Notes under the pieces: generated by a model
What the model saw: the letters and a program-made list of their open reading frames with translations, nothing else
The model's database searches: none
What the model was told of the DNA's origin: nothing
Made by a program: the position numbers and the translations under genes
Shown here: in pieces, positions 37,830-56,887 of the stretch
How the letters are laid out: every line of letters starts with the position of its first letter
Position numbering within the stretch: the stretch's first letter is position 1
Assembly: GCF_041296385.1 (NCBI RefSeq)
Contig: NW_027184063.1
Coordinates: 1,116,001 to 1,180,000, forward strand
Length of the DNA: 64,000 nucleotides
Source: Aphelocoma coerulescens
Lineage: Eukaryota > Chordata > Aves > Passeriformes > Corvidae
Reading direction: 5' to 3'

Positions 37830-38322
37830 GGGAAGCCCTATGAGTGTCCCGAGTGCAGGAAGAGCTTTGTGCACTGCTCCAACTTCATCTCGCAGCAGAG
37901 GATCCATGTCAGGTGATCCACAGTGATCCCCGTTGGGCAGAGACCTGGTGACCCCTGTTCCAGATGATCCCCATTTCTGGGGGTATGTTTGAGAGATTTA
38001 TTTCCCTTCTCATTCTCGTGTTTTGATTTCATTGCTAAGAAATTCAATCCCTGTCCCCAGACTGGGTCTGGTTTTCCGTGCTGGTGATCGGGGCAGGAGC
38101 TCTCCTGGTCCTTATCTCAGCTCCTGGGCCTTTCCTCAGCCAACCAAAGAAGTCACTAAACAATTTTGAGCCACTCTGAGCTTTTCTCGCTGATGACTGC
38201 TCAGGTGCCAGGCAGGTCTGCCCCACCAAGACCTCCCCACCTGGGCCCCCCTCACCCCCAGTGCCCCCCGAGAGCCAAATTAAGGGAGAGAGGGGAGGTT
38301 TCAGCACCTGCCCAGAGCTGGG

Positions 38323-39092
38323 GTTGGGGCAGCTGGGGCCATACTGGTGGCACTGGTGGTGCTGGGAGCCCCCTGGCCACAGGCATGGAGTTCTCACGTG
38401 AGCCGAGAGCGTGGGAAGAGGAATCCAGGTATGGTGGGAAAGGTGGGGATGGGTGGGAAAATGGGTGTGTGGGACCCATAAAATGAGTTGGAGGGGGAGT
38501 GGGACCCCCTAAAGACAGAACAGGAAGGGGGCTGAGGACTGGGGGATGATGGGAGAGGCATGGGAAAGCTTAGAAATTGGGGAATGGAAGGGTGGGATCC
38601 CAAAAGGAGGGGGCCGGGGATTGGGAGGATTGTGTGAAAAGGTTTGGGAAAGGGTTAAAAGGGGGGACTGGGACCCCCAAACTGATGGGGGCAGGGGCTG
38701 GCAGCTGGGGATTGATGGGAAAGGAGGGGAGAAAACAGAAAAAGGGTGGAAATGAGAGTGGGACTGTGGGAAGGAAGGTCCCATGGCAGCCGTGGAGCAA
38801 GGGGTTGTGGAGTGGGGATCTGGGGTGGGCCCCTGAGCTCTTGACTTGCTGTGGGGTGCTGGGGGCTGCTGGGGGGGCACCCCCTGACCTGTGTCCTGCA
38901 TACACAGAGCTCTTCCAGCACATGGTAAAGTCCAACTGTTGTTTCATTAATGGTACCGACCAGGTGGGGTTTGTGGTGAGGTTCAGCTCCAGCCTGGAGC
39001 AGCTCCTGCACTTGGGCAGCAATGTGGGGCAAATCATGGGGGACACGCTGTATGGGGAGAAACAGGCCCGCTACTGGAACACTGTCCTAGGG
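38323..39092 (+). pseudogene. MHC class II beta fragment, exons 1-2 (U3)
   Basis: Exon 1 (about 38,323-38,397) carries the decayed signal peptide. Its start ATG is TTG and the donor base is changed (CAC|GTGAGC). Exon 2 (38,908-39,092) reads LFQHMVKSNCCFINGTDQVG through to GEKQARYWNT and is then cut by the LTR at 39,093. No beta-2, transmembrane or cytoplasmic exon is present. Confidence 0.8.
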
Positions 39093-39686
39093 TGATGTTA
39101 TGAGGCTGCTTTATTCCTTAACCCTCTGCTCAATGCCCAAGGACGCTGTGTCTTTAGGATGGATCTGGGGGTGGTGCCGGAGCCACGGGACGCGAGTGAG
39201 AGTCGGATCAACGGCTAGAGCCCAACGGCTCAGGGGCTCCGGGGTCTCGACAGGGCCTGGGAGGGAGTGTGCTAGGAGCGCTGTGCGGCTCCTTGGGTTT
39301 TTGGTGTTCTGGCTAGCTGGAAGAAGGTTCTGTTGGGTTTTCTTGTTCTTTTTCCCTTCCTTCCCCCTTGCCTCACTGCCTCCCTCCCCTTCATTCCAGT
39401 CCAGGGAGCCTGTGAGTTGGCCCCGGTGGGCCCGCGGTGTGGCCCCGGCTGGTCCGAGCCCGTGTGTCTGTTCCCTCTCCAGGAATTTGTTGTATTTCGG
39501 GGTTTGTTTCCCCTGTTCTACCCTGCTTTGTTTGGTGTTAATAAACAGTTTTGGTTTTTTCCCACTTTACGTTCTTGTGACCCATTTGTCTTACTGGTGG
39601 AGGAAATGGGGAGGTCCTTTTCCCTTTGGAGGAGACACTCATTCCAGAGTGTTTCCTCCTGAAGTCTTGTCTCCAAAACGAAGACA
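39093..39686 (+). mobile_element. ERV-L-like 5' LTR in MHC exon 2 (U3), with PBS
   Basis: TGATGTTATGAGG at the left end and GAAGACA at the right end. Six bases further on is TGGCGCCCAAC (39,693-39,703), the 5' part of a primer-binding site matching tRNA-Lys. The leader continues to 39,784, where the match to the U4 arm ends, and a gag remnant lies at 42,174, so this looks like the 5' LTR of a provirus. Confidence 0.82.
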
Positions 39687-39839
39687 TAAATTTGGCGCCC
39701 AACTTAAGGGGCACATGGAATTGTGGAGAAAAAATCAAAACCATTTTGGTTTGAATCACTTTTGTATTGAGGTACAGCAGTAAGACCATGCTGTTTGATT
39801 TAATAATTTTTCTGTGGAAGCTAGCCATAAGTACATGTC

Positions 39840-40115
39840 TGTCGGGGTCTCCTCCCCCCGTCATGTAGCCCTGAGGGGAGACACGGGGTTTCCCTGCCCC
39901 TGGTCAGCCTCGTTCCCCATTGGTTGATTTGTGTTTCCTGCGTGGGCAAGGACCCTCGGTTCCTCGTGACTGTAACAGTTCCTGGGCAGAGCCCGGCCAT
40001 GTGGCTGGGGAAATAAACATCTCTGAAACATCTATCAAGAATCCGTCTATATGTATTTCTTTTCCACGGGACTCCTGGTTTGATATAGGCGTGTTACAGT
40101 ATCGCCACTGCAACA
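39840..40115 (+). repeat. 5' LTR of the cold-shock element
   Basis: TGTCGGGGTC...CTGCAACA. It contains AATAAA in GGGGAAATAAACATC near 40,011. Same family as the solo LTR at 16,369-16,661. Confidence 0.9.
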
Positions 40116-40236
40116 AAATGGTGGGGAATTGTGAGCAGAACGATCCCCGATCCCTAAGCGGCCGATTTGTGTGAGTAAACCCTAGAAACTTTGGATTCCT
40201 CTTCTTGGTTTTGTTTTGCTATTCCATATCTAAACT

Positions 40237-40623
40237 ATGGAGGAACCGTGGGAAGACTCTTGGCTTTCAGAGCCGCATATGGACATTTATCTTAAACTTA
40301 AAATGATTCTTGAACAACGATTTGTAAATTTTAGCTTGATTCAAGCTCAAAAAGAACTGAAATACTTCCTGGCATGGTTGTTTAAGAACTTTTTCTATGT
40401 TTCTTGGGATTTAATTCTTACCAAGGGCTTTTGGAAGACCGTTTGGACACAGTTAATATTTGAGTCAAAATATATGCCGGTGGAAGAATATTTTCGTGAC
40501 TATTATTTAATTACCAAGACTGTTGAGCAATGTCAGCTGTGTCCTGGTGAAGGGAAGCCTGGCTCAGGGACCGTGCGACCCAGGCCACGTGCACCGAGCG
40601 CTCTGCGAGCAGCAGCGAGGTAG
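40237..40623 (+). CDS. gag: Gag matrix-like ORF (truncated betaretrovirus-like)
   Basis: 129 residues from an ATG at 40,237. Residues 1-102 resemble the N-terminal matrix region of betaretrovirus-like Gag: a helical stretch (MDIYLKLKMILEQRF) followed by the conserved pattern LKYFLAWLFKNFFYVSWD and a KYMPVEEYFRDYYL segment. From about residue 103 the frame runs into CpG-rich sequence with no viral similarity and stops at 40,621-40,623. Matrix domains direct Gag to membranes and assembly. The retained fragment may keep packaging or translation signals rather than make a working protein. There is no Met-Gly myristoylation start (MEEP instead). Confidence 0.65.
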   Translation: MEEPWEDSWLSEPHMDIYLKLKMILEQRFVNFSLIQAQKELKYFLAWLFKNFFYVSWDLILTKGFWKTVWTQLIFESKYMPVEEYFRDYYLITKTVEQCQLCPGEGKPGSGTVRPRPRAPSALRAAAR

Positions 40624-41005
40624 CTCCCACTGCGGGCGAGCCGCAGTGTCTGTGGCGGAGCGGGGAGCGGCGGGAGCGGCGCAGCCCAGCGGTGCCCGCA
40701 TGGCCCCGCGCAGCGCGTGGTGGAGCGAGCCCAGTGAACGCCCGAACGAGAGGGGTGGCGCGCGGGCGGCGGCTGGTGGCAGAGCGGAGCTGCGCCCAGC
40801 CGAAACGCGCGCTGGAGCAGGGCACGGGGGGGGCATCGCTTGGGGGCGCAGAGACGTGGGTGCAGCCCCAGGCAGCGGCAGCAAAGCTGCGACCAGAGGA
40901 GGCGATGCACGGCAAACAGAGCGGCGCGGCCCGGCCTGGCCCGCGCAGCCCCGAATGTGACCCCGGGAAAAGCGCGCAGGAACCAGCAGCGCAGACAATT
41001 CCAAC
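40560..41005 (+). other. CpG-rich leader between gag fragment and cold-shock ORF
   Basis: About 450 bases, very rich in CG dinucleotides and unlike the AT-rich retroviral sequence on both sides. Open frames exist in all three phases but none continues into the cold-shock ORF (the same-phase frame stops at 40,958-40,960). It looks like the 5' untranslated or CpG-island part of a captured host transcript (inference). Confidence 0.5.
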
Positions 41006-41563
41006 ATGGGAGCGACCGAAAGAGAGAGCAAAGACACAGCGAGACAGAAAACAGCAGCCACTCGGAAAAAGGAAAAGACCATAGTTGCTAAGAACTTAGG
41101 GATAGGGAAATGGTATAATGTTAAACAAAATTATGGTTTTATAACAAGATGTGATAGCCAGCAAGACATATTGGTGCATAGAACTGCTATTAAAAAGAAT
41201 AACCCAGAAAAATGCATCCCAAGCTTGGGAGATGGAGAGGTGGTGGAATTCAAAATCATACAAGGTAGAAAAGGGTTACAAGCATCGCAGGTCACTGGGC
41301 CTGATGGTGTTCCTGTGAAAGGCAGTATATATGCTAAAAATCGTAGTCATGTTAGACAATATCTCCTTGGTAGGCCCCCCTACAGTCTCCCTTTCCTAAT
41401 CCCACCTTTCCCTTTTACCCTATGTCCTATTACCCCCAGTGTATTCCCAATCCGTTTTTCCATCCATGGTTTCCCTCACAAAACCATACCTTTGCCAATT
41501 GTTTCCCCAAAAATCCCTTTCCAATGCCGAGTGGGAGATGAAAAGGGGGAGGGAAGAAATTAA
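41006..41563 (+). CDS. Y-box-type cold-shock domain protein in an LTR element
   Basis: 185 residues, uninterrupted. A basic N-terminus (residues 1-30) precedes a cold-shock domain at about residues 31-110: GKWYNVKQNYGFI (the RNP1-like strand, with the usual NGYGF altered to QNYGF), DILVHRTAIKKNNP (RNP2-like), GDGEVVEF and VTGPDGVPVKGS. The KKNNP and TGPxGVPVxGS patterns mark the vertebrate Y-box (YBX) family, nuclear and cytoplasmic proteins that bind single-stranded RNA or DNA. The C-terminus is proline- and hydrophobic-rich, lacking the basic/acidic islands of Y-box proteins. The ORF has no intron, as expected for a reverse-transcribed capture. It differs at many positions from host Y-box proteins, so capture was old or evolution fast. 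Confidence 0.82.
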   Translation: MGATERESKDTARQKTAATRKKEKTIVAKNLGIGKWYNVKQNYGFITRCDSQQDILVHRTAIKKNNPEKCIPSLGDGEVVEFKIIQGRKGLQASQVTGPDGVPVKGSIYAKNRSHVRQYLLGRPPYSLPFLIPPFPFTLCPITPSVFPIRFSIHGFPHKTIPLPIVSPKIPFQCRVGDEKGEGRN

Positions 41564-41745
41564 ACCCTCTCCTGCCTCAGTTTCCCTACAAAGCATGCTC
41601 AGAGAGTTCTGTCTCCCTTCTGTCAGCCCTAAGATGTTCCACAGAATCTGTTTGGACATTTAAAGACTCAGGAGGGTGGCTTGTTTTGTTTTGAAACTGT
41701 TCTTGTTATGTTTATCCAGTTGTCTCCATTCTCCTTTTATTAAAA

Positions 41746-41759
41746 TAAAACGGGGGAAA
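41746..41759 (+). other. Polypurine tract
   Basis: A-rich then G-rich purines ending GGGGGAAA directly against the 3' LTR: the expected plus-strand priming site. Confidence 0.8.
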
Positions 41760-42052
41760 TGTCGGGGTCTCCTCCCCCTGCCATGTAGCCCTGGGAGAGG
41801 GGCCCTGAGGGCACAGAAACACGGGGTTTCCCTGCCCCGGTCAGCCTCATTCCCCATGGGTTGGTTTGTGTTTCCTGCGCGGGCAAGGACCCTCGGTTCC
41901 CCGTGACTGTAACAGTTCCTCAGCAGAGCCCGGCCATGCGGCTGGGGAAATAAACATCTCTGAAATATCTATCAAGAATCCGTCTATATATATTTCTTTT
42001 CCACGGGACTCCTGGTTTGATATAGGCGTGTTACAGTATCCCCACTGCAACA
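41760..42052 (+). repeat. 3' LTR of the cold-shock element
   Basis: TGTCGGGGTC...CTGCAACA, 293 bp. It has about 17 bases near its start that are missing from the 5' LTR. Confidence 0.9.
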
Positions 42053-42173
42053 CATGTCCACAGCTATGGGCAGTCGGGTCCCTGGCTTACACTTTTAGAA
42101 GTCAGGAATAAGAATCAGCACTGCCATTTTTATATGCCTGGTGGCAGTGATTCATCGAAGTTTGGCTGAAGTA

Positions 42174-43134
42174 ATGGAAGCCATGGAGAAGGCGTTTGTC
42201 ATGTTGTTTTCCCATTCTGGCCTTGGTAGCTTCCTTTTGGAATGTATTAGCAATTACACCCAGTTTGTTAGGGGAAAAGCAGGGGATGATAATTCCCAGC
42301 CCTTCATCTCCTTCTTCCCCTTCAGATCTGGCACGTCACATTTTGAAAGTGTCCCGTTTCCTCTGGATGTCAAAGATGCCACCTTCTTGTTATGTTATCT
42401 AGCAGGGTTTCTCTATGTGGTCTCCAGCTTGTCTAAAATAAGGGCTGAGATTTCCAGAGGGGTTGCCCAGACACCTGCCCCAGTTGCAGAAAATCCTAAG
42501 TGCTGTGGGGTATGGGAGGACATAGGCCTGACCCTGAAGCACTTTTCTGACCCAGGAGCCTGGAACCTCCCCCCTGAACAATTTCAGAATCCAGCTGATG
42601 TGGGGAAGTATCTGAAGGAAAACTGCAATAACAACACTGATGAAAAGGAAAAGCTCATTGCCATGTGCTGGGTCCTGGCTAATGCTAACCGCACGCTGCT
42701 GGATTCTGTAGGGCAGAAGATACAGCCAGAGGGGCAGGAGAATAAGGCAGCAGACACCCCAATCACTCCAGCTGCAGCTAAAGCAGATGGGGAGCCTAAA
42801 CCAACAACAATTGCCCCTGTTCAGAGAAAGAAACACAAAGCCAAATCCATTTGCCCGCTGGATGGTGATGGGCAGCCAGGACCTTCACAGCCAGCAGAGC
42901 AAGTGGAACCTGAAATCATTACCGAGTCCCTGTCCATAGAGAGCCTTCGTACCCTGAGGAAGGATTGCACCCAACGGCCTGATGAAACTATATTAAGATG
43001 GATGGTCCGAATCTGGGACACTGCAAGCGATGGTATATTCTGGATGGCACTGAAGAGAGGCATTTGGGGTCCCTGTCACGTGATCTAAGTATCGACCAAG
43101 GGATGACAAGGGGCCCTGAAGCTCTCAGTCTCTG
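42174..43134 (+). pseudogene. gag: ERV-L-like gag remnant
   Basis: From the ATG at 42,174 an open frame of about 305 codons runs to 43,088. It is Gag-like by position (downstream of the LTR and primer site at 39,093-39,703), by its alanine- and charge-rich linker, and by a C-terminal capsid-like segment (SLSIESLRTLRKDCTQRPDE, then WMVRIWDTASDG). A frame break near 43,030 shifts the continuation (DGTEERHLGSLSRD), and the sequence ends at the U4 arm boundary. The structural protein would have formed particles; this copy is broken. Confidence 0.65.
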
Positions 43135-43235
43135 GAAAGTCTTACTGCTGTACCTCAATACAAAAGTGATCCAAACCAAAATGGTTTTGATTTTTTTTCA
43201 CTTCCATGTTCCCCTTAAGTCGGGCACCAAATTTA

Positions 43236-43830
43236 TGTCTCGGTTATGGAGACAAGAATTCAGGAGGAAACACTCTGGAATGAGTGTCTCCTCCAAAGGG
43301 AAAAGGACCTCTCCTTTTCCTCTACCAGTAAGACAAGTGGGTCACAAGAACGTAAAGTGGGAAAAAACCCAAACTGTTTATTAACACCAAACAAAGCAGG
43401 GTAGAACAGGGGAAACAAACCCCGAAATACAACAAATTCCTGGAGAGGTAACAGACACATGGGCTCGGACCAGCCGGGGCCACACCGCGGGCCCACCGGG
43501 GCCAACTCACAGGCTCCCTGGACTGGAGGGAAGGGATGGGATAGGAGCGAGGCAAAGGGGAGGGAAGGGAAAAAGAGCAAGAAAACCCAACAGAACCTTC
43601 TTCCAGCTAGCCAGAACACCAAAAACCCAAGGAGCTGCACAACGCTCCCAGTGCACTCCCTCCAAGGCCCTGCCGAGACCCCGGAGCCCCTGAGCCGTTG
43701 GGCTCTAGCCGTTGAACTGACCCTCACTCGCGTCCCGTGGCTCTGGCCCCACCCCCAGGTCCATCCTAAAGACACAGCGCCCTTGGGCATTGAGCGGAGG
43801 GTTAAGGAATAAAGCAGCCTCATAACATCA
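43236..43830 (-). mobile_element. ERV-L-like LTR in MHC exon 2 (U4)
   Basis: Inverse of 39,093-39,686, with a related primer-site-like sequence beside it (GGCACCAAATTTA at 43,222-43,235 on the plus strand). It cuts the MHC exon at the same codon. Confidence 0.85.
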
Positions 43831-44607
43831 CCCCAGGACAGTGTTCCAGTAGCGGGCCTGTTTCTCCCCATACAGCGTGTCCCCCACGCAGTGCCCCACA
43901 TTGCTGTCCAAGTGCAGGAGCTGCTCCAGGCTGGAGCTGAACCTCACCACAAACCCCACCTGGTCAGTACCATTAATGAAACAACAGTTGGACTTTACCA
44001 TGTCCTGGAAGACCCCTGTCTATGCAGGACACAGGTCAGGGGGTGCCCCCCCAGCAGCCCCCAGCACCCCACAGAAAGCCAAGAGCTCAGGGGGCCACCC
44101 CAGATCCCCACTCCACAACCCCTTGCTCCACGGCCGCCATGGGACCTTCCTTCCTGCAGTCCCACTCTCATTTGCACCCTTTTTCTCTTTTCTCCCTTCC
44201 TTTCCCATCAATCCCCAGCTGCCAGCCCCTGCCCCCATTTGTTTGGGGGTCCCAGTCCCCCCTTTTGCCCCTTTGCCAACCCTTTTCACACAATCCTCCC
44301 AATCCCCACCCCCCTCCTGCCCAGTTTTGAGATCCCACCCTTCCATTCCCCAATTTCTAAGCCTTCCCATGCCTCTCCCATCATCCCCCAGTCCTCAGCC
44401 CCCTTTCCATTCTGTCTTTAGGAGGTCCCACTCCCCCTCCAACTCATTTTATGGGTCCCACACACCCATTTTCCCTCCTCTCCCCACCTTTCCCACCATA
44501 CCTGGACTCCTCTTCCCACCCCCGTCGGCTCACCTGAGAGCTTCATGCCTTTGGCCAGGGGGCTCCCAGCACTACCAGTGCCACCAGTATGGCCCCAGCT
44601 GCCCCAT
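43831..44607 (-). pseudogene. MHC class II beta fragment, exons 1-2 (U4)
   Basis: Exon 1 44,607-44,534 and exon 2 44,015-43,831, inverse of the U3 copy. Exon 1 again has its ATG out of phase with the signal-peptide frame. Exon 2 contains the INGTDQVGFVVRF segment and is truncated by the LTR. Confidence 0.8.
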
Positions 44608-45117
44608 CCCCAGCTCTGGGCAGGTGCTGAAACCTCCCCTCTCTCCCTTAATCTTGCTCCCGGTGGGCACTGGAGGTGAGGGGGCCCAGGTGGGGAGGTC
44701 TGGGTGCGGCAGATCTGCCTGGCACCTGGGCAGTCATCAGTGAGAAAAGCTCAGAGTGGCTAAAAATTGTTTAGTGACTTCTTTGGTTGGCTGAGGAAAG
44801 GCCCAGGAGCTGAGATAAGGACCAGGAGAGCTCCTGCCCCGAGCACCAGCACGGAAAACCAGACCCAGTCTGGGGACAGGGATTGAATTTCTTAGCAATG
44901 AAATCAGAGCACGAGAATGAGAAGGGAAATAAATCTCTCAAACATCCTCCCCCCACAATGGGGATCATCTGGAACAGGGGTCACCAGGTCTCTGCCCAAC
45001 GGGGGTCATTGTGGATCACCCGACATGGATCCTCTGCTGCGAGATGAAGTTGGAGCAGTGCACAAAGCTCTTCCTGCACTCGGGACACCCGCAGGGCTTC
45101 CCTTACTGGTGGCACTG

Positions 45118-46087
45118 TTAGTGTCTGGTCAAGTGAGAGCTCCTGGAGAAGCTCTTCCCACACTCAGGACACTCGTAGGGCCTCTCCCCGGTGTGGCTCT
45201 TCTGGTGGCGGATAAAGTTGCAGCTGGAAATGAAGCTCTTCCCAAACTTGGGACACTCGTAGGGCCTCTCCCCAGTGTGGATTCGTTTGTGCCTGGTGAG
45301 GTTGGAGTTGGTACCTGAAGCCCTTCCCACAGTCAGGGCAGCGGAAGGGCCTCTAATCTTTGTGAATCTGCTGGTGCAGGAGGAGACTTGAGCTGGTCTG
45401 AAACCTCTTCCCACATTCGCCACACTTGAAGGGCCTTTTCCTAGTGTGGATCATCTGGTGGCGAATCAGGTAGGAGCTTGTGCTGAAGCTTTTCCCACAT
45501 TCCCCACACACATAGGGCCTTTCTGCGATGTGGATCATCTGGCGGTGGATCAGGTTGGTGCTCCGGCTGAAGCTCTTCACACATTCCAAGCACTTGTAGC
45601 GTTTCTCCCTAGCGTGACACTGCCCATGGACGACCAGGTTTGAGCTCTGACTGGATCTCTGGCCGCCTTCCTGGCACAGGGTGGGTCTTTCCGCCTCAGA
45701 GCTCCCTGGGCTGCCCCTCCTCCTGTGGGATCTCTGGGGCTTTTCCTCCCCGTTGGATTCCGGCGCTGTGGAGCTGCTCAAAATGGCCTCTTCCACCAGG
45801 TTCTGCCACGGGGATTTGTCCTCCCTGGGCTCCATCCTCAGCTCCTCATCTGGGGGAGGAAGGACAAGGAGATGATGGGATTTGCCTCTGTGCCACAGGG
45901 AAGGGGAAGGAGATCCCCCCAGTCCGTCCCCGGCAGGACGGCCTCGGCAGCGGGGTTGTCCTGCAGCTGGGGGTGATGCTGGGCTGGGAGATGGAGCAGG
46001 AGAGAGGGGGAAAGGGGCAGGGACTTCCTCCTCACCTGCCTGGGTGTCCCGGGGCATCTTCCTCTTTCTCACAGCCTCCGCCTCCAT
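45118..46087 (-). pseudogene. C2H2 zinc-finger pseudogene (U4 copy)
   Basis: Same two-exon plan (46,087-46,036; second exon from 45,849). The frame opens with the family N-terminus and about four fingers, then hits an in-frame TAG at 45,355-45,353 where other copies read HTDERPF (here HKD, stop). A one-base shift near 45,310 displaces the next fingers, one zinc-binding cysteine is lost (CPKFGKSF) and a TAA ends the last finger early. At least three independent lesions, so loss of function is certain for the full array. A product with the first fingers could still be made. Confidence 0.85.
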
Positions 46088-46529
46088 CTGGCCAAGGTTT
46101 GGGAGTGGGAAATCCTGGTTTGGAGGGAAAAACAAGGCGTGAGTGTGTTGGCTTAGGGGTCGCTCCTGCCCAAGTCCTTCTCTAGAAGTCACCGGGCATA
46201 TCATGACTGTAAAATCCTCTCAAACACCGTGCTGGTTTTAACTGGCATGAGAAATGAACCCCACTGATCTGCCCCAAGAGAGATGAAGGTGGGAGTTACA
46301 ATTCACCAAAGAGATGACAAGAAATACCATGATACAGCTGTAACCCACAAAGGCTGAGTATAACCAGGCACCCTGGGACAAGAGCAGAACGGTGGTGGTT
46401 AGTTCCTGTGCTGAGCACCACCTGGTCCCGCTGCATGCAAAGCAAAAGGAAAGAAAACAAAACCTGTTGGTCACAGTGGTAGACACACTGTCCTGTCCAA
46501 GTGATGGGTGCAGTCTTGTCGACAGCAGT

Positions 46530-47685: not shown

Positions 47686-48147
47686 TGTTGCCCACCGACC
47701 ACAAACACAAACCAACAGAGAGTCAGTTTATGTGGTGCTTTATTCAGGGCCCGGGGACCTGGGGACTGGTGTCCCAAATCAGGCTTGCCAAAGACCTATC
47801 GTTTCACTCAGCTCTTTATACAGTTTCAAACATTGGCACACATACAAAACATTAACAATTGATAATCATACCCCAAGCCGTATATCTTCATGGTTGTCTA
47901 GTCTTAGATAATGCTCAACGAACTCCCACCACTGAAATCCCCCTTGCATGCCACATATATCGACCCAGAACTATTTACTTTTAGACATGTTCTCCATGCC
48001 CAGCTAATTCACTACTCCTAACTTCCCCACCCAGCACATTCCATTCCTGTTTCCCAAGAGAACTATTTCTACACCTGAGGCCTTACAGCCTAGCAGAGCC
48101 TTAGCCTTACTACTTCTAAAATCCAATATCCTATCCTTTTTGTAACA
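47686..48147 (-). repeat. 3' LTR of the provirus
   Basis: TGTTACAAAAAGG...GGGCAACA in minus sense. A TTTATA box-like sequence and TTTATT signals are present. Confidence 0.93.
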
Positions 48148-48206: not shown

Positions 48207-50789
48207 TCATGTTGCCGTTTCGCGATAAGCAGGAGGTGGAGTGGCTGGTTCTGCCAGAACTTCTCTTCGCATTATCGCCTTCATTATTCGCCGAGAGTGT
48301 TGACCTTCCTTGACAATCATTCCTAAAAGACACTTATATACTATTAAGGCAACTAAAATGATTATAACAATCATGATTCCATACTGTACAATTGAGGATA
48401 TCCATCCGGACATCCGAATTCCCAGGGAGCTGAACAGTTCTCCAACCCAATTATGTTCTGCCTCTTTCTGAATATTATTCACCTTTCCTTCAATCTGTTC
48501 TAATTGACTTATATCCTTTTCTACTTCCTGTGTAACATTCGGGATGTGAATGCAGCAATGATCATCTCTACCATGCAGATAGCCACATATGCCATGCTCC
48601 TTCAACAATATCATATCTAAAGCCATCCGATTTTGAATTGTCATCCTAGACGTAGCTTGTAACTGCAGATTTAAGTCCTTGAATCCCTTCTTGGTCACAG
48701 CCGCCAACCTTTCTGTTTGCCCCAACAATTTGTACAACATTTCCCTGCTTCGATATGATGATATTGGTGCAAAGAGAGATTCTAATACCCACCCAAATTT
48801 AACTCCTGAAGAAGGTCCATGCCAATCTTCCCCTTCTTCTAACCCTATGTCTCCAATTTCCTGACTTATATCTCGCTTATGTCTCATTTGTATTTCTGAG
48901 GCCGTCAATTTTGTCGATTTCCAAAAAGGACATAGAGTTGGAACTCCTAAAGTAATTTGTGTAGTTGGACCATCTACCGGCATATGAGTGGTCCAGTGTC
49001 CGTGACCCATTACCCAAACTAAATTTCCTGGAGCTCGGATTGATGTAGTTTTACAGTTTAACTCTCCTTCTGTATTTTTGTCTTTTATCGTGTGGTTATA
49101 TCCCCTACATTCACAGCCAAATCTCAAAAGTACCTTTACAGGCAGTAGACTCACAGACTCACTTGGGCTGTCACAAGTGAAGACCTTAGTGCAATTCCAA
49201 TCGGTCATTCCAGGTGCATCTTTTCTCCAACTACCCTGTCCTTGATAGGTCTTTGAGTAAGTTTGATTTTTCCGTCCCTTCCAATAAATACACCATTGAA
49301 CTGTTCCTATGTAACTATAGGTTTCTAACAAACTAGGTCCCCAGATTGTCTGCCATTGCTCCATGGTAGTTGTGTTTGTAACATTCTGGCATATTATTTC
49401 AAAATATTGTTCAGTTGCCGGGACTTGTAGCGTTTGCCTCTCATCGTATTCACACCATCCTACTCCATGGAATCTTCCGATTTTGGTAAATACAGCATTC
49501 GGAAGCTTGTAACAATCTGCTCGGTTCCCCGGGGTTTTCCAGTGTTTCCTTATCACATTTGTCCGATTAACCAATTTAGTTCGGATCCTAGTCTCCTGGG
49601 TACAACTTAAGGTAACTGTTCAATTAGATGCAGGCATGTCTGGAGCTGGTATAATTCCCCATGGTATAGGATCTCCTGCCACATGGGGCAAAGGCAGACA
49701 TGCAGTGATTGCTGATACATTTTGTGTTTGCCCAAAATCCCTAATTAACCCCACAATCAGATTCTCTGGTTTGGTTCGGATTTCATCCTCTGGTACCTGC
49801 CGAGTCACCCTTGTTCTTTCAACATAAACACTAATCATCCCGGTTGCCCACCAATCATCTTGAGCAACCCAACACCAGTATTGTCCATTATCTTGCTGTT
49901 CCAGGACCTCTTTAATTACTAACACTATTTCTTGGGGTTTTCTTCTAATTTGATATTTCCCTTGAGCCACCAAGTTCTGTCCTCCAAACCACCATTCATA
50001 CTCAGTGTAGCTTTCAGTTGGTATCCTACATCTTAAAACCAAATCCTGCCCTTCCTTTGCGTTATATATTTTCTGTTCAGGCTTGATTCCTCGATCCTGT
50101 TGTAATACCACTTCTACCTTCCTGACCCCATAACCTCCCCTATTACCACAAACAAGAACACAAAGGTATTTACCCTCCGATCTACCAATCTCTGAGTTCG
50201 TTATATTCAACCATCCTCTGCTTTCATTTCCCTGCGTCCACCAACTTGTCCCTTGTACCTGTGGATTCCACATTTCCTGTGTTGTGTTCCATTTCCACCA
50301 TTTCATTCCAATCTGTTTCTGACACCCTGTTTCAAATTTATGAGTACATTTTATTCTGAGGGGAGGTCCGTCCCACATATCTACTTTCCCATTTGGGAGA
50401 GTCACCTGGACCTTATTTTCCGGTTCTGTTTGGGAGATATTTAAAATGTCAAGATTTACGAATCCATAATCATAACTCCCTTTTATCCAAACTATACAAG
50501 CATATTTCCCTGTTCTGGCCTTTGTTACATTGGATATCTGCAGGGTAGTCCTACCTTTTTGCTGCTTCTCATCCCAGACCGTTTCTACTCCTTTATCTTG
50601 AATTTGATCTTTGGTGATCCATTTCCATCGTGCCCTGACTCTGTCCCATCCAGCTCCCTGGTCATCGACAAACAAACATGTGAGATTTACATTTGAATTC
50701 TCCGGTACCCACACCCTCGATTCAGGTATTGTGATTTTAACAAAGGTTTCAACAATTATTATTTTACTCAAGAGTAACAACAACAGCAT
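48207..50789 (-). pseudogene. env: env with three Ig-like domains, SU and TM; one in-frame TGA
   Basis: The ATG at 50,789 overlaps the pol stop as TAATG. A signal peptide (MLLLLLLLSKIIIVETF) is followed by three Ig-like domains: about 50,740-50,450 (NLTC...KWI...ARTGKYAC), 50,400-50,100 (LRIKC...KWW...SEGKYLC) and 50,085-49,820 (LVLRC...WWF...QDNGQYWC). A TGA at 49,622-49,620 interrupts the frame, which continues in the same phase through a cysteine-rich surface region, a furin-type RHKR (48,884-48,873), a fusion-subunit heptad region, an immunosuppressive-domain-like helix (IQNRMALDMILLKEHG) with CX9CC, a membrane anchor (about 48,390-48,335) and a tail with PPPAY. Env normally mediates receptor binding and fusion. 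With the TGA only the Ig part would be made, as a secreted product. Confidence 0.88.
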
Positions 50790-53700
50790 TAATTTTTGGC
50801 TTTGAACACCATTCTTGTGGGAGATAGGGGTTCCACCGACCATCGGGAGGGGACCTTTTTGACCCGTGTGTAATGGATCCAGCTGTTGATCCCGTCGACC
50901 TTGACGGCGGTGTAAGTTGTCATTATCACTTGATGGGGGCCGTCCCATGTTTCCTTCAGAGGCTCCACCGACCAGTTCTTCACATAAACTTGGTCTCCTG
51001 GGTGAATATCGTGAGCAGGAGTGTCCAGAGGTAACGGTCGATTCCACTCCAGCGTGGATCTCAGTGCTGCAAGGGTCTTATTTAAAGACAAAACATAATT
51101 TACAATCATCTGATCCCCAATTACATGTGGGTCCCCTTGATAGGTTACAGCATGATATGGTTTGCTGTACAAAATTTCATACGGACTTACCCCTATCCTT
51201 TCTCATGGTTTAATCCTAATCCTCAGAAGGGCTAGAGGCAATGCTTGGGGCCACTGTATTTTAGCTTCTTGACAAATCTTTTTAATTTGATTTTTCAGAG
51301 TTTGATTCATTCGTTCCACCTGACCACTAGATTGAGGTCTCCAGGGGGTGTGTAAGTGCCACTGAATTCCCAGAATAGTAGAAACTTCCTGCACGATTCC
51401 TGCAGTAAAATGTGGTCCTCTATCTGATGATATTCCTAAAGGAACCCCAAACCTCGGAATAATTTCCTTGAGAAGGGTTTTCACTACCTCCTTGGCCTGG
51501 TTCGTCCTGCAAGGGAAAGCTTCGGGCCATCCTGAAAAGGTGCACACATAAACTAGTAAGTACTTGTATGCCTGAGATTTTGGTAACTCGGAAAAATCTA
51601 TTTGCCAGTAATCCCCTGGTTGTGGCCCTACACGTATTTTCCCCATTTGGACTTGTCTTCTAACCAACGGGTTATTTTTAATGCAAATCGGGCAGGTGGC
51701 ATTTATTCTTCTGGCCATTGTTATCATCGAATTAGAGAGTACTATTTTCTTTAGATGTTCTACCAATGCTTCTGCACCACAGTGGAGTTTGTTATGTTCA
51801 GTTTTCATGACTACTTTCATTAATTCCACTGGCAGTATAACTTGTCCGACCGGTGTTACATACCATCCTACAACATTCCTTCTTGCTCCAGTGAATTGTG
51901 CCAACCGTTCATCCTCCGGAGAGTAGCACGGTTTCTCTTCCAAATAAGGTGCAGCGGGATTTTCTCTTGTCGGTATCAGAGCCATTTGAGTCCAGACCAA
52001 TCTGGCTGCCTTTTTCGCAGCTTCATCTGCCATCCGATTCCCCTGAAATTCCTTCCCGGAGTCTGCTTGATGACCTCGGACATGCATGATCGCTACTGCT
52101 TTAGGTAAGTGTACAGCTTCCAACAACTGAATTATTACTTCCTTATGTTTGATCTGTGAGCCTTGAGAGATCAAAAGTCCTCTTTCTTTCCACAGAGCCC
52201 CATGGATGTGAACTACACCAAATGCATACTTTGAATCAGTCCAAATGTTCACTTTCCTGTCTCTACTAAGGACCAATGCCCTTACCAACGCCCATACTTC
52301 TGCTTTTTGCGCTGAAGTTTCCGGAGGCAGTGCTTTAGCTTCCACTATTTCCTGGAGTGTCACCACAGCATACCCTGCATACCTGGTTCCATGCTCCATA
52401 AAACTGGATCCGTCCGTAAACAGCTCCACATCGGGATCTGCCATCGGGACATCTTTCAGATCTTCACGGCTGGCATACACTTGTTCGATCACCTCCACGC
52501 AGTCATGCTCCAGTTCTCCTTCCTCTTGGGTGGACCTAAGGAATTCTGCTGGATTGAGATAGTTGGTTATTTTCAATTCAACATCATCTTGTTCCCGCAA
52601 CTGAGCCTGGTACTGCATCATTCTGCTGGAGGAGAGCCAATGCCCCCCTTTTTGTTCCAAGACGGCTATGACCATGTGAGGTACATATACCGTGATGTGT
52701 TTTCCCAGTGTCAGTTTCCGTGCCTCCTGAATTAGGATTACCGTAGCAGCCACTGCTCGCAAACACCCTGGCCACCCTCTGCTCACCATGTCCAGCTGTT
52801 TCGAGAAGTACCCCACGGGCCTCTTCCATGACCCCAATCACTGTGTGAGTACTCCTAAAGCTAATCTCTGCCTTTCATGCACATACAATTGAAAGTCTTT
52901 TGTCAGGTCAGGCAGACCCAGAGCGGGGGCCTCTTTGAGTGCTTGCTTCAATTCCTGAAAGGCCTTGTGCTGTGTCTTACCCCACTTGAATTCGGGTTCC
53001 TTGATTGTTTCGTACAGTGGTTTGGCCATAAGTCCGAAATTCGGAATCCACAGGCGACACCAGCCAACCATTCCTAGGAAAGATCTTAGTTCCTGATTAT
53101 TTCGTGGTACAGGGATTGCACAGATGGCTTGAATGCGGTTTACCCCTATTCTCCTGACTCCTTGTGATATTTCACATCCCAGATAAATCACCTTCTGTTG
53201 CACCAGCTGCGCTTTTTCCTTGGATACTCGGTATCCTGCCTGACCCAACATGTTTAATAGTTTAATTGTTAACTTTGAGCACAGTCCCCGCTCCTCTGTT
53301 CCCAGGAGTATGTCATCCACATATTGTAAAACAACATAAGAAAAAGGAGAATCTTTTACCTTGGTAGTTTTCCATTCCTCTAACTCCTTTGCTAGCTGGT
53401 TTCCAAAAATGGTGGGTGAACACTTAAATCCTTGTGGCAACCTGGTCCATGTTAACTGTCGCTTGCGGCGAGTGTCTGGGCTTTCCCATTCAAAGGCGAA
53501 AATGTGTCGACTCTCGGGGGCCAGTGGGATGCAGAAGAAGGCGTCTTTTAGATCAATCACTGTGAACCACTGAAAATTCTCAGAAATCGATGTTAACAAT
53601 GTATATGGATTGGCCACCACCGGGTGTATATCTTTGGCAATTGCATTTACTGCTCTCAGGTCCTGCACCAACCTGTATTTCCCATTTGGTTTCCTTACCG

Positions 53701-54310
53701 GAAAGACTGGAGTATTAAATTCCGATTCGCATTCTTGTAAAATCCCTAATGCTATAAATTGCGTGATCATTGGGGCAATTCCTTTCCTGGCTTCCAAACT
53801 GATAGGGTACTGTCGAACTCTTACCGGGTGTGCCCCTTCCTTTAATTCAATTTTCACAGGAACGGCTACCCTGGATCTGCCCGGGGTCCCTGTTTCCCAT
53901 ACCCACGGGACTACTGCCTGCTCTATTTCCTGGGGTATCTCCTCTGTCTTTGTCTCTTTAATCACAAAAAGTTTTGCCAGATTCCCCTCCGGGATTTCTA
54001 GTTTAGCACGCCCTTTCTCAAATATGATTTTTGCATCCAGTGCCGATAATAAATCTCTCCCCAACAAGCATTCCGGGCTGCTTGGCATATATAAAAACTG
54101 GTGATCCAATTCTTTGTTTCCAAATTTGATTTCCAGTGGCCGCAAGAATGACCTCTCCACCACCTCCCCCGACACCCCTACTACTTTCACAACTGAATCA
54201 CTTAACGGTCCTATTTGTTCATTGATTGCAGAGAAAGTGGCTCCTGTATCTACCCTAAATTCCCTGGGCCCCCCGTCAACTTCCAGGACCACTTTTAGAT
54301 CTTTATCTAG
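50789..54310 (-). pseudogene. pol: pol: protease, RT, RNase H, integrase; two in-frame TGAs
   Basis: In the same phase as the 3' part of gag, after a UGA. Protease active site VDTGA near 54,250; RT with IDLKDAFF, LPQGFKCSPTIFG and YVDD (53,323-53,312); RNase H with FTDGSS and WTDSKYAFG; integrase with an HHCC-like region (CPICIKN), catalytic region WQIDF / SSDRGPHF / GQVERMNQ and a C-terminal GDQVYVKNW...GIxxWIHYTRVK domain typical of gammaretroviruses. TGA codons at 52,840-52,838 (after RT, before RNase H) and 51,205-51,203 (late integrase) interrupt an otherwise open frame. The enzymes mature the particle, copy its RNA and integrate the DNA; full-length pol is not encoded here without readthrough. 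Confidence 0.92.
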
Positions 54311-54316
54311 TCAGCT
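54308..54316 (-). promoter_or_regulatory. Probable gag-pol stop-codon readthrough site (UGA CUA G)
   Basis: The gag stop reads AGC TGA CTA GAT, and pol continues in the same frame. UGA followed by CUA is a known efficient readthrough context, and gammaretroviruses make Gag-Pol by readthrough. A downstream pseudoknot was not tested. Confidence 0.7.
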
Positions 54317-56018
54317 CTGATTTTGATAGCTCCCCATCATAAAGGCTTGAGCGACACCTTGTGGTCCTGGCGCGAAAGGGTTTAACCCATCATTCGCATT
54401 CATTCCCTGATTCATGGGATTCCCTCCTGGAAAGTTACTCATCGGTGTCCCCATCCCCAAATTGAGGGGGCACTCATTCTTCCAATGACCTTCGGCGAAG
54501 CATCGGGCGCACTGACTGGGCCCCAATTTACCTCTACCCCTACCCATCATCTGGTTCCCTACATTCTGATTCACAAAACCTCCGAAACCACCTCTTCCCA
54601 TGCCCCCGTTTCCTCTGCCTCGTCCCCTCCCCCAGCCTCTCACATTCATCTGACTTGCCTGTTGTAACACTGCCAACATGCTTGCTTGTTGCTTCTTCAC
54701 TGCCTCTTTCTCTCTATTATTGTACACTTTCCACACTACTTCAAGCATTTTCTCCAAGTCCCGAGTATCATTCCCTTCTAGCTTTTGTAGCTTCCTCCTA
54801 ATATCCTCCTGTGACTGTCCCATAAATATCAAGGCCATTTGCAGTTTTCCTGCCTCCGATTCCACGTCTAAGTCTGTATACCTCCGCGCTATTTCTTTCA
54901 GCCTCTCCAAGAACGCAGATGGTGACTACCTTATCCTGTCTTACCGCATACAACTTAGACCAATTTAAAGTCTTTGGAATTCCCCTCTGAATTCCTTCCA
55001 CCAACAGCTCCTGATAAACCTGCAACCTATGATACTCTTCTGCCAAATTAGGGTTCCATTCTGGATCTTCCCTTGGTACTATTTCATTCACATTCCCTAT
55101 TCCTTGTAGTGCTGGTGCTCGCAACTGAATCATATCCCTTGCCCGATTAGACATAGCTTTAAATACCATCTCCTTTTCCGTAGAATCCATTATCGAGTCT
55201 AGCAACACCTGTAGGTCATTCCAGTCCGGATTCTGTGTCTTTATTACCATTTTCACCACCCGAGCCACTTTTTCAGGATTTTCTCTATAAGCTCCTGCAG
55301 ATTGCTTCCAAATTATTAAATCATTGGGGGAAAACGGAACTTTCACTCTGACCCGATCCCCTGTTGGTCCAACTGCTTCTCGCAATGGGGCCATTAGATG
55401 TGCTCGAGAAGCGCTTTTTCCCCTGTCCAGACGCCCTCTGCGAGTACGCTGGGAGAGCGGAGTTCGGGATTGTTCCCTCCCTCTCTCCCTGGGCTCGGGA
55501 GTTCGGGATCGTTCCCTCTCTCCTTCCTCGGAGTCAGATTCCTCTTCCGAAGAATCTGAGTCCGGGAGGGGGAGGTTGACTGGGTCGGATGGTGATACCA
55601 ACAAAGACACATCCTCCTCAGGCTCAGAAAACCGTAGCCTTCGCTCTTTACAACCCGCGCATTCCTCTGGTTCCGTTTCTAACACCATCATTCCACATTT
55701 CCTCTGCCAGTCCTTTTTTCCTATTAGCTGATAAAACAAATCCAAATAGGGTATCTCATCCCACTTCTCATTTTCCCGTAAATACCGCATCATGGGGGTT
55801 ATAATTTCAGAATTAATAGTGCCATTCCACTGCCACTGCATCCCCCCAGTTTCATATTCAGGCCATACCTTATTACAATAATCAATCAATTCTCTTTTCC
55901 GCAGCTCCCGTCCCAATTTACCCTCCTTCCAATGACTTAGCAAACACCCGAGGGGAGAATCCTCCGGAATATCCTTATCTGAACTTGACAAAGCCCGAAA
56001 CACCTGCAACGGCATCAT
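54311..56018 (-). pseudogene. gag: gag: matrix, capsid, nucleocapsid; one frameshift
   Basis: The first ATG in the matrix frame is at about 56,018 (MMPLQ). Matrix-like sequence (SPLGCLLSHWKEGKLG), an acidic then RS/RTP-repeat linker, a gammaretrovirus-type capsid (PFSPNDLIIWKQ near 55,340) and nucleocapsid with one zinc knuckle CARCFAEGHWKNEC near 54,500. A one-base shift at about 54,932-54,921 separates capsid from the rest. There is no Met-Gly start, so the matrix start may be altered. I see no PPxY, P(T/S)AP or YPxL late motif. The nucleocapsid frame ends in UGA CUA. Confidence 0.88.
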
Positions 56019-56401
56019 TCCAGAGGTATGCAACCACACAATAACGCACACAACTAATAACACACAGACTAATACCAATACCAATTACCACAATATCCAA
56101 TTCCCTCCTTGCTTATCTCGTCGCCGCGAGAAGCAAGGGCTGGCTCTGGAAAGCTTTCGCTCTGTCTGACGGCCAGCGCCTAGGCTTTATAATCCCAAAC
56201 CAATGCCCCAACCCTGCGAGTAGAGACTCGTCTTACCGGGCAGGCTACCACCACCGGTTTAAAAGGAATAAAGCACCTTGTGGGCTTACCTCACGGTTGT
56301 CCGTCGGACGCGGGGTCAGGCACGGGCTGATGTCTCCCCAGAAATCACCTGGTGCCGGCACGGAGCAGATCACCCCGCGAACCGCCCCTATGACCCCCGG
56401 A

Positions 56402-56419
56402 GTCCCACCTGGGTCGCCA
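56402..56419 (-). other. Primer-binding-site-like sequence
   Basis: TGGCGACCCAGGTGGGAC in minus sense, six bases inside the 5' LTR. The 3' half resembles tRNA-Arg type T-arm sequence, but the match is from memory and the gap to the LTR is longer than usual. Confidence 0.5.
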
Positions 56420-56425
56420 GAAAAC

Positions 56426-56887
56426 TGTTGCCCACCGACCACAAACACAAACCAACAGAGAGTCAGTTTATGCGGTGCTTTATTCAGGGCCCGGGGACCT
56501 GGGGACTGGTGTCCCAAATCAGGCTTGCCAAAGACCTATCGTTTCACTCAGCTCTTTATACAGTTTCAAACATTGGCACACATACAAAACATTAACAATT
56601 GATAATCATACCCCAAGCCGTATATCTTCATGGTTGTCTAGTCTTAGATAATGCTCAACGAACTCCCACCACTGAAATCCCCCTTGCATGCCACATATAT
56701 CGACCCAGAACTATTTACTTTTAGACATGTTCTCCATGCCCAGCTAATTCACTACTCCTAACTTCCCCACCCAGCACATTCCATTCCTGTTTCCCAAGAG
56801 AACTATTTCTACACCTGAGGCCTTACAGCCTAGCAGAGCCTTAGCCTTACTACTTCTAAAATCCAATATCTTATCCTTTTTGTAACA
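56426..56887 (-). repeat. 5' LTR of the provirus
   Basis: 462 bp, identical to the 3' LTR except for C/T differences near 56,473 and 56,871. Confidence 0.93.

Follow-up and report, generated by a model that had tools for sequence, protein, structure and literature searches.

Immunoglobulin-like domains, three at most, in front of a gamma-type-like Env in a family of bird endogenous retroviruses, with a predicted avipoxvirus counterpart

Among the described systems that come closest to the element reported here, the gamma-type Env proteins (those of murine leukaemia virus (MLV) and the syncytins, with filovirus GP2 as a relative) comprise a surface subunit (SU) and a transmembrane subunit (TM) separated by a basic cleavage site, and their hallmarks are a CXnCC motif in TM, where n is typically 6, and a CXXC motif in SU that is absent in alpharetroviruses (PMC9967133). 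A retrovirus with three host-type immunoglobulin (Ig) domains is known in CrocERV31, in which a captured nectin-3 open reading frame (ORF), about 76% identical to this named host gene, replaces env (PMC4299795), whereas TgERV-F, a songbird alpharetrovirus with a gamma-type env, exemplifies a bird env of recombinant origin (PMC10536682). Avipoxviruses, for their part, encode several Ig-like domain proteins (PMC5390406). Here we describe an endogenous retrovirus (ERV) of the Florida scrub-jay, Aphelocoma coerulescens, located in a stretch of 64,000 nucleotides (NW_027184063.1, positions 1,116,001-1,180,000; hereafter the window), whose env gene begins with an array of three Ig-superfamily domains as judged from sequence profiles and predicted structure. 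The array and its relatives were followed through the 1.33 Gb genome of the same bird and through the proteins of other species.

The bird family resembles gamma-type Env proteins in its two subunits, basic cleavage site and TM homology, but differs from them in carrying up to three Ig domains ahead of SU, in having CX9CC and in the lack of any CXXC seen so far. It shares with CrocERV31 the three host-type Ig domains; in contrast to that element, SU and TM are kept here in one frame with the array, for which no close host gene turned up. TgERV-F was compared by description only, and the available part of that description contains no Ig domain (PMC10536682). Env proteins diversify their outer domain, but among the open-licence papers listed by the literature searches none was recognised in which several host-type Ig domains share a frame with an SU-TM that is still in place, which does not prove absence.

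The env gene is encoded on the minus strand, from 50789 to 48207, and its start overlaps the stop codon of pol in a TAATG at 50791-50787, exactly as the original prediction, made from the letters of the window, had placed it. Its parts are the following:

50745..50789, minus strand: env ATG; the hydrophobic signal peptide comprises residues 1-15, with its end set by eye (ORF, AlphaFold2 model)
50436..50744, minus strand: Ig1, V-type, putatively B7/butyrophilin-like, residues 16-118 (Pfam Ig/V-set, PDB profile matches, AlphaFold2)
50094..50435, minus strand: Ig2, probably a copy of Ig1, which has two additional paired cysteines (cysteines counted on another, uninterrupted env copy), residues 119-232 (profile-profile comparison, AlphaFold2)
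49812..50093, minus strand: Ig3, I-set type, residues 233-326 (Pfam I-set, PDB profile, AlphaFold2)
49800..49811, minus strand: RVTR, a minimal furin-type site directly ahead of a low-confidence linker (residues 329-342)
49623..49766, minus strand: conserved start of the surface subunit (ENLIVGLIRDFG...), where Ig-less relatives start after a short leader (family alignment)
49620..49622, minus strand: in-frame TGA interrupting env in the window copy (ORF list)
48873..49619, minus strand: remaining surface subunit, ending in RHKR, without CXXC
48207..48872, minus strand: transmembrane subunit; it contains CX9CC (about 48587-48552), a conserved QNRMALDMILLKEHG stretch and a membrane anchor before the stop

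The original prediction placed a signal peptide, followed by three Ig domains, within the env frame; the anatomy and the shared frame stood, whereas continuity did not, as the TGA at 49622-49620 splits the Ig piece from the remainder of env, with an identical frame on both sides. Upstream of the ATG, the env frame of the window copy stays open from about 50948, overlapping pol, and gene models with an upstream start (MGR...) occur among the relatives (e.g. P0001, P0006, P0008, P0009, P0012, P0023 and P0027), which makes a longer Env leader possible.

The Ig piece (50789-49623) is 389 residues long, consists of the hydrophobic leader plus three Ig units, and is matched by the Pfam models Ig_3 (2.2e-15), ig, I-set and V-set. 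The Ig signature that had been noticed in three segments, coded as LxC-like ... W ... xGxYxC, occurs three times in the piece, and 20,000 residue shuffles gave none with three occurrences, one with two and 21 with one. Structure prediction with AlphaFold2 on 22 aligned sequences yields three beta-sandwich domains with a predicted local distance difference test score (pLDDT) of about 94, 85 and 90: Ig1 reaches 89-96 across residues 21-110, Ig2 80-90 across residues 141-230 (62-73 at 121-140) and Ig3 85-94 across residues 241-320. The linker at residues 329-342 falls below 50, as does the linker in a model of the Manacus Env, which at full length is of poor quality except for Ig1 and some stretches of SU and TM (pLDDT 61.1, predicted template-modelling score 0.31); the linker behind the RxxR is probably flexible. 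When the predicted structure was compared with solved structures by Foldseek, the first 50 matches were nearly all Ig-domain proteins by title, with titin as the best (7.8e-19).

Ig3 is recognised by the Pfam I-set model in five of five members, and its profile matches titin, CEA and contactin in the PDB. Ig2 is the weakest of the three by sequence, with a Pfam Ig model match in one of six members (best E 0.034). Its profile matches that of Ig1 (probability 95.6, E 1.3e-8) and not that of Ig3 (probability only 4.7), and for this reason Ig2 is probably an internal duplicate of Ig1. Model and profiles thus identify three Ig-superfamily domains, defined by the two-cysteine sandwich, the core Trp and YxC, with Ig2 assigned through the model and its match to Ig1. 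Two other structures were considered and rejected: a non-Ig fold, which had been named as one of two outcomes that would overturn the original prediction, disagrees with the three predicted beta-sandwiches, and an MLV-type receptor-binding domain in place of the Ig domains is at odds with the canonical Cys-Trp-YxC pattern and with Ig-domain proteins as top matches.

Relatives of this Env are widespread in birds. Two protein searches returned 20 and 30 matches, mostly from birds, which include barn swallow, mousebird, mynah, wheatear, tyrant flycatcher, wagtail and manakin, and further thrush, chickadee, sparrows, kakapo, falcon and kiwi, besides one remote fish match (E 4.7e-4). According to the profiles, the number of Ig domains in the relatives varies from none to three, and the order is always Ig1-Ig2-Ig3 wherever more than one is present:

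Three Ig domains: scrub-jay; Hirundo P0002 and P0003 and Colius P0005, with Ig1 cut
Ig1 and Ig2: P0007, Oenanthe P0008, Melospiza P0030, Motacilla P0010
Ig1 and Ig3: P0017
Ig1 alone: P0011, P0012, P0014, P0028, Catharus P0027, kakapo P0032
No Ig domain: P0019, Ammospiza P0035, P0043

The Ig counts of P0006, P0009 and P0023 are unsure, these being gene models from which Ig domains were possibly spliced out. All three Ig-less proteins keep the start of SU, and P0035 also keeps TM. Judged from these alignments, the Ig array is modular, because the number of its domains varies between zero and three while the start of SU stays conserved, and other bird species carry the same arrangement. An unrooted tree of SU-TM sets a group of kakapo, falcon, kiwi and Ammospiza apart from a passerine-Colius group; the Ig-less Ammospiza type thus groups with the one-Ig kakapo type, which fits loss. 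An RxxR lies within 35 residues ahead of SU in 22 of 26 sequences, to be read against 37% in shuffles, and the strict form is found in 9 of 26. Scans of viral contigs found no relative.

In the scrub-jay genome, a search with the Ig piece gave 106 rows, corresponding to 104 near-full-length matches and one copy split in two, and hence at least 105 copies, all genome copy counts being lower bounds. The Ig piece is free of stops in 86 of the 104 near-full-length matches and contains one in the other 18. Forty env pieces were picked from the match list, 39 of which were usable, and 24 of these 39 run for at least 855 codons with RVTR, RHKR and CX9CC and without a stop between the Ig array and SU. 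On these 24 uninterrupted copies, which were chosen as intact, the ratio of non-synonymous to synonymous substitution rates (dN/dS; point estimates without a test) between two subfamilies was 0.44 for the Ig array (0.36 for Ig1, 0.78 for Ig2 and 0.22 for Ig3), 0.29 for SU and 0.21 for TM. Inside the larger group the corresponding values for array, SU and TM were 0.26, 0.47 and 0.14, and inside the smaller group 0.29, 0.46 and 0.62, so that the array stays below 1 in all three comparisons. A search of the genome with the Melospiza Env P0030, in which 59 of 3206 candidates were scored, gave at least 65 rows, lying at the loci of the window family where places were compared.

Several side observations concern these copies. 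The Ig piece is identical in three of them (C565:7928-9094, C643:1165623-1166789, which is the window copy, and C643:1362125-1363291), all with the same env stop, and two of the three, separated by about 196 kb, point in opposite directions, as if duplicated with their flanks. Contigs C34-C38, which together measure 41.46 Mb, hold 71 of the 104 copies. The assembly paper for the Florida scrub-jay gives the W chromosome as 41.5 Mb, spread over a large scaffold and five more (PMC11631490); because the two sums are close, C34-C38 (one large and four further contigs) are likely the W, which would then hold an excess of copies. The Aphelocoma protein P0013, named "endomucin-like isoform X2" by NCBI, starts with the ERV leader and part of Ig1, and is either an artefactual model or a chimeric transcript from the host.

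Behind the array, the Env looks like a gamma-type protein. Pfam matches of TM stay below the curated cut-offs (TLV_coat 3.2e-4, GP41 1.2e-3), and the TM profile matches filovirus GP2, ERV-S71, syncytin-2 and MLV p15 in the PDB (best E 4e-5). The motif is CX9CC, not CX6CC, in 24 of the 25 family sequences that reach it, P0039 being without the first Cys; the remote fish match, P0044, has CX6CC. A scan of the bird-family sequences, among them many fragments, showed no CXXC. Because TM matches but the family has CX9CC and no CXXC, the Env appears to be, at most, a divergent gamma-type member.

The provenance of the array is best approached through Ig1. When compared with 177,635 PDB sequences, the family profile ranked CD276 (8e-21) and PD-L2 (2e-12) first, followed by DIP-alpha (6e-10) and PD-L1 (5e-9). 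With the profile of Ig1, the matches near the top were CD276 (102 bits, to which two repeats contribute about 41-44 bits each), DIP-alpha, CEA, PD-L2 (50 bits), MDGA1, CEACAM1, PD-L1 and VEGFR1 (44 bits each). Kakapo Ig1, searched alone, matched CD276, butyrophilins (BTN2A1), PD-L1 and TIM-3 (E 3e-5 to 2e-3). In the reverse direction, the V domain of PD-L2 gave 104 rows in the whole scrub-jay genome: the best three fall at two neighbouring host loci 19 kb apart, read from sequence and spacing as PD-L1-like and PD-L2-like, 100 fall at Ig1 of ERV loci (E 0.003-0.38, assigned by eye) and one elsewhere. In CD276, PD-L2 and PD-L1, the profile of Ig1 covers the whole V domain; identity to the B7/butyrophilin family is low, however, and Ig1 is followed by an Ig1-like Ig2 and an I-set Ig3, whereas B7 proteins carry a pair of V and C domains.

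A number of observations weigh against a B7-like donor and against a single origin of Ig1. Identity between the PD-L2 V domain and ERV Ig1 is just 20-23%, and the ERV rows of that search are copies of one another. DIP-alpha ranks above PD-L1 in both profile searches, JAM scores close, and other members of the Ig superfamily score near the B7 members against Ig1. An Ig1 profile built without kakapo and P0017 gives kakapo Ig1 28 bits and JAM 29 bits, and a single origin of Ig1 is weakened because the kakapo domain scores no higher than JAM; the position of Ig1 ahead of SU is a better argument for common descent than its profile score. Finally, no single host donor of three domains was found, Ig1 being B7-like, Ig2 Ig1-like and Ig3 a generic I-set domain, and neither the first protein search nor a third one aimed at a host donor (six matches) contained a recognised host gene. 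By a small margin, the best class for Ig1 on sequence is the B7/butyrophilin V domain, with the donor gene not established. For the suggested capture of a host Ig ectodomain, the resemblance of Ig1 speaks at the level of a class and not of a single donor gene.

A further relative of the array was found in another group of viruses. Among predicted viral protein structures, the first Foldseek match is Shearwaterpox virus SWPV1-183, a protein of 332 residues that is 42% identical to the window array over 326 columns (E 2.3e-39, template-modelling scores 0.63/0.72), whereas the viral protein at rank 2 has just 15% identity; SWPV1-144 follows at rank 17 with 33% over 127 columns. For comparison, three relatives with three Ig domains, P0002, P0003 and P0005, are 45, 39 and 40% identical to the window array in the family alignment. 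By Foldseek, SWPV1-183 is homologous over the whole array, and it has no room for SU and TM, since 332 residues are too short for both. SWPV1-183 is 54% identical to the canarypox "Ig-like domain protein" CNPV081 of 333 residues and has a 97% counterpart in SWPV2-076; CNPV081 and SWPV2-076 are linked to the array through this published table only (PMC5390406). An array-length protein thus exists alone in an avipoxvirus, and a transfer may have run in either direction. This adds a possible route from virus to virus that was absent from the original prediction, and the tie between an avipoxvirus Ig-like gene and a retroviral relative suggests that an immune-targeting part is shared between viruses.

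Taken together, we tentatively favour, at slightly less than an even chance, a reading in which the array is a captured, B7-like, protease-releasable module that binds immune receptors and is mounted on a gamma-type-like Env, ligand and cleavage being inferred. One to three Ig domains, the B7-like V domain first, would have been captured from a host-type B7-like gene and placed between signal peptide and SU; produced together with Env, the array would be cut off by a furin-type protease or stay loosely tethered, and might act as a decoy or as an inhibitory ligand by binding a receptor of host lymphocytes or myeloid cells; attachment and fusion would fall to SU and TM behind it. A role as immune ligand or decoy is suggested by the separate domains, the RxxR and linker, the Ig-less relatives that keep SU, the likeness to checkpoint ligands and the poxvirus counterpart. 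The wider proposal of a bird-wide retroviral lineage with a releasable, PD-1-ligand-like Env module shared with avipoxviruses, that is, one inherited ligand in two unrelated virus groups, is more doubtful. In either form, a viral fusogen would be joined to immune-receptor-type domains, and the variants of zero, one, two and three domains that occur in nature would serve as built-in controls.

The main rival, itself rather unlikely, regards the array as a new receptor-binding head on SU that binds a host partner of the Ig superfamily, with the number of Ig domains shifting receptor use. Ig domains of partner proteins are bound by V domains of the B7 type as well as of the JAM type, the array sits ahead of SU, its number of domains differs among lineages as receptor switching predicts, and Ig2 evolves fast between subfamilies. 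However, entry is probably possible without the array, as P0019, P0035 and P0043 indicate, the RxxR separates it from SU in most of the sequences, and an array-length poxvirus protein without SU and TM cannot serve retroviral entry. Less probable again is an array that was first an avipoxvirus immune-modulator gene (SWPV1-183/CNPV081), captured from a host and later acquired by the retrovirus. The several Ig-like proteins of avipoxviruses and the identity of SWPV1-183 to CNPV081 (PMC5390406) agree with it, and the identity of SWPV1-183 to the window array falls within the range of the three-Ig relatives, but ERV arrays of zero to three domains in kakapo, mousebird and many passerines fit an old retroviral origin better, with the poxvirus gene derived. 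A glycosylated, flexible shield or spacer that hides conserved SU from antibodies without a specific ligand is improbable: the low-confidence linker in both models and the N-glycosylation sequons of an uninterrupted copy (five in Ig1-Ig2, none in Ig3) are in its favour, yet a shield would need little conservation, with which the dN/dS of Ig1 and Ig3 between subfamilies fits poorly, and there is no SU to be hidden in the poxvirus protein. A host exon inserted by chance, which was the second outcome named as overturning the original prediction, or an assembly accident at this single locus has a negligible probability: nothing was found in its favour, and it is ruled out as a single-copy event by the copy number in the scrub-jay genome and by the same layout in other bird species.

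As regards the remainder of the provirus, it spans 56887-47686 on the minus strand between two long terminal repeats (LTRs) of 462 bp with TG..CA ends, which are identical at 460 of 462 bases and flanked on both sides by a CCAC target duplication:

56426..56887, minus strand: 5' LTR, 462 bp, TG...CA, CCAC outside (LTR comparison)
54311..56084, minus strand: gag, assigned by eye; its two frames, which overlap, run 56084-54798 and 54910-54311 (ORF list)
50789..54292, minus strand: pro-pol frame, assigned by eye, with stops at 52838 and 51203 (ORF list)
47686..48147, minus strand: 3' LTR, 462 bp, different from the 5' LTR at two positions, directly preceded by a purine tract, CCAC outside

Gammaretroviruses make a 4-bp target duplication and have LTRs with TG..CA ends, and both features are seen in the window provirus; they also keep gag and pro-pol in one frame with a stop between. 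Here only the second of the two gag ORFs shares the frame of pro-pol, from which a stop separates it. The window copy is broken: in-frame stops interrupt pro-pol at 52838 and 51203 and env at 49620, and gag occupies two frames. It is young, as the near identity of its LTRs shows; if neutral changes accrue at about 2e-9 per site per year, its age would be roughly 1 million years, and the best reading is that the ERV family was recently active in birds. A likely primer-binding site, TGGCGACCCAGGTGGGAC, lies at 56402-56419, six bases past the 5' LTR. Elsewhere in the window, a large inverted repeat occupies 38000-44930, with arms at about 38000-39786 and 43139-44930 whose pieces are 91-97% complementary, and two minus-strand ORFs at 45118-46204 with C2H2 zinc-finger-like repeats, recognised by eye, likely belong to a host zinc-finger gene or pseudogene.
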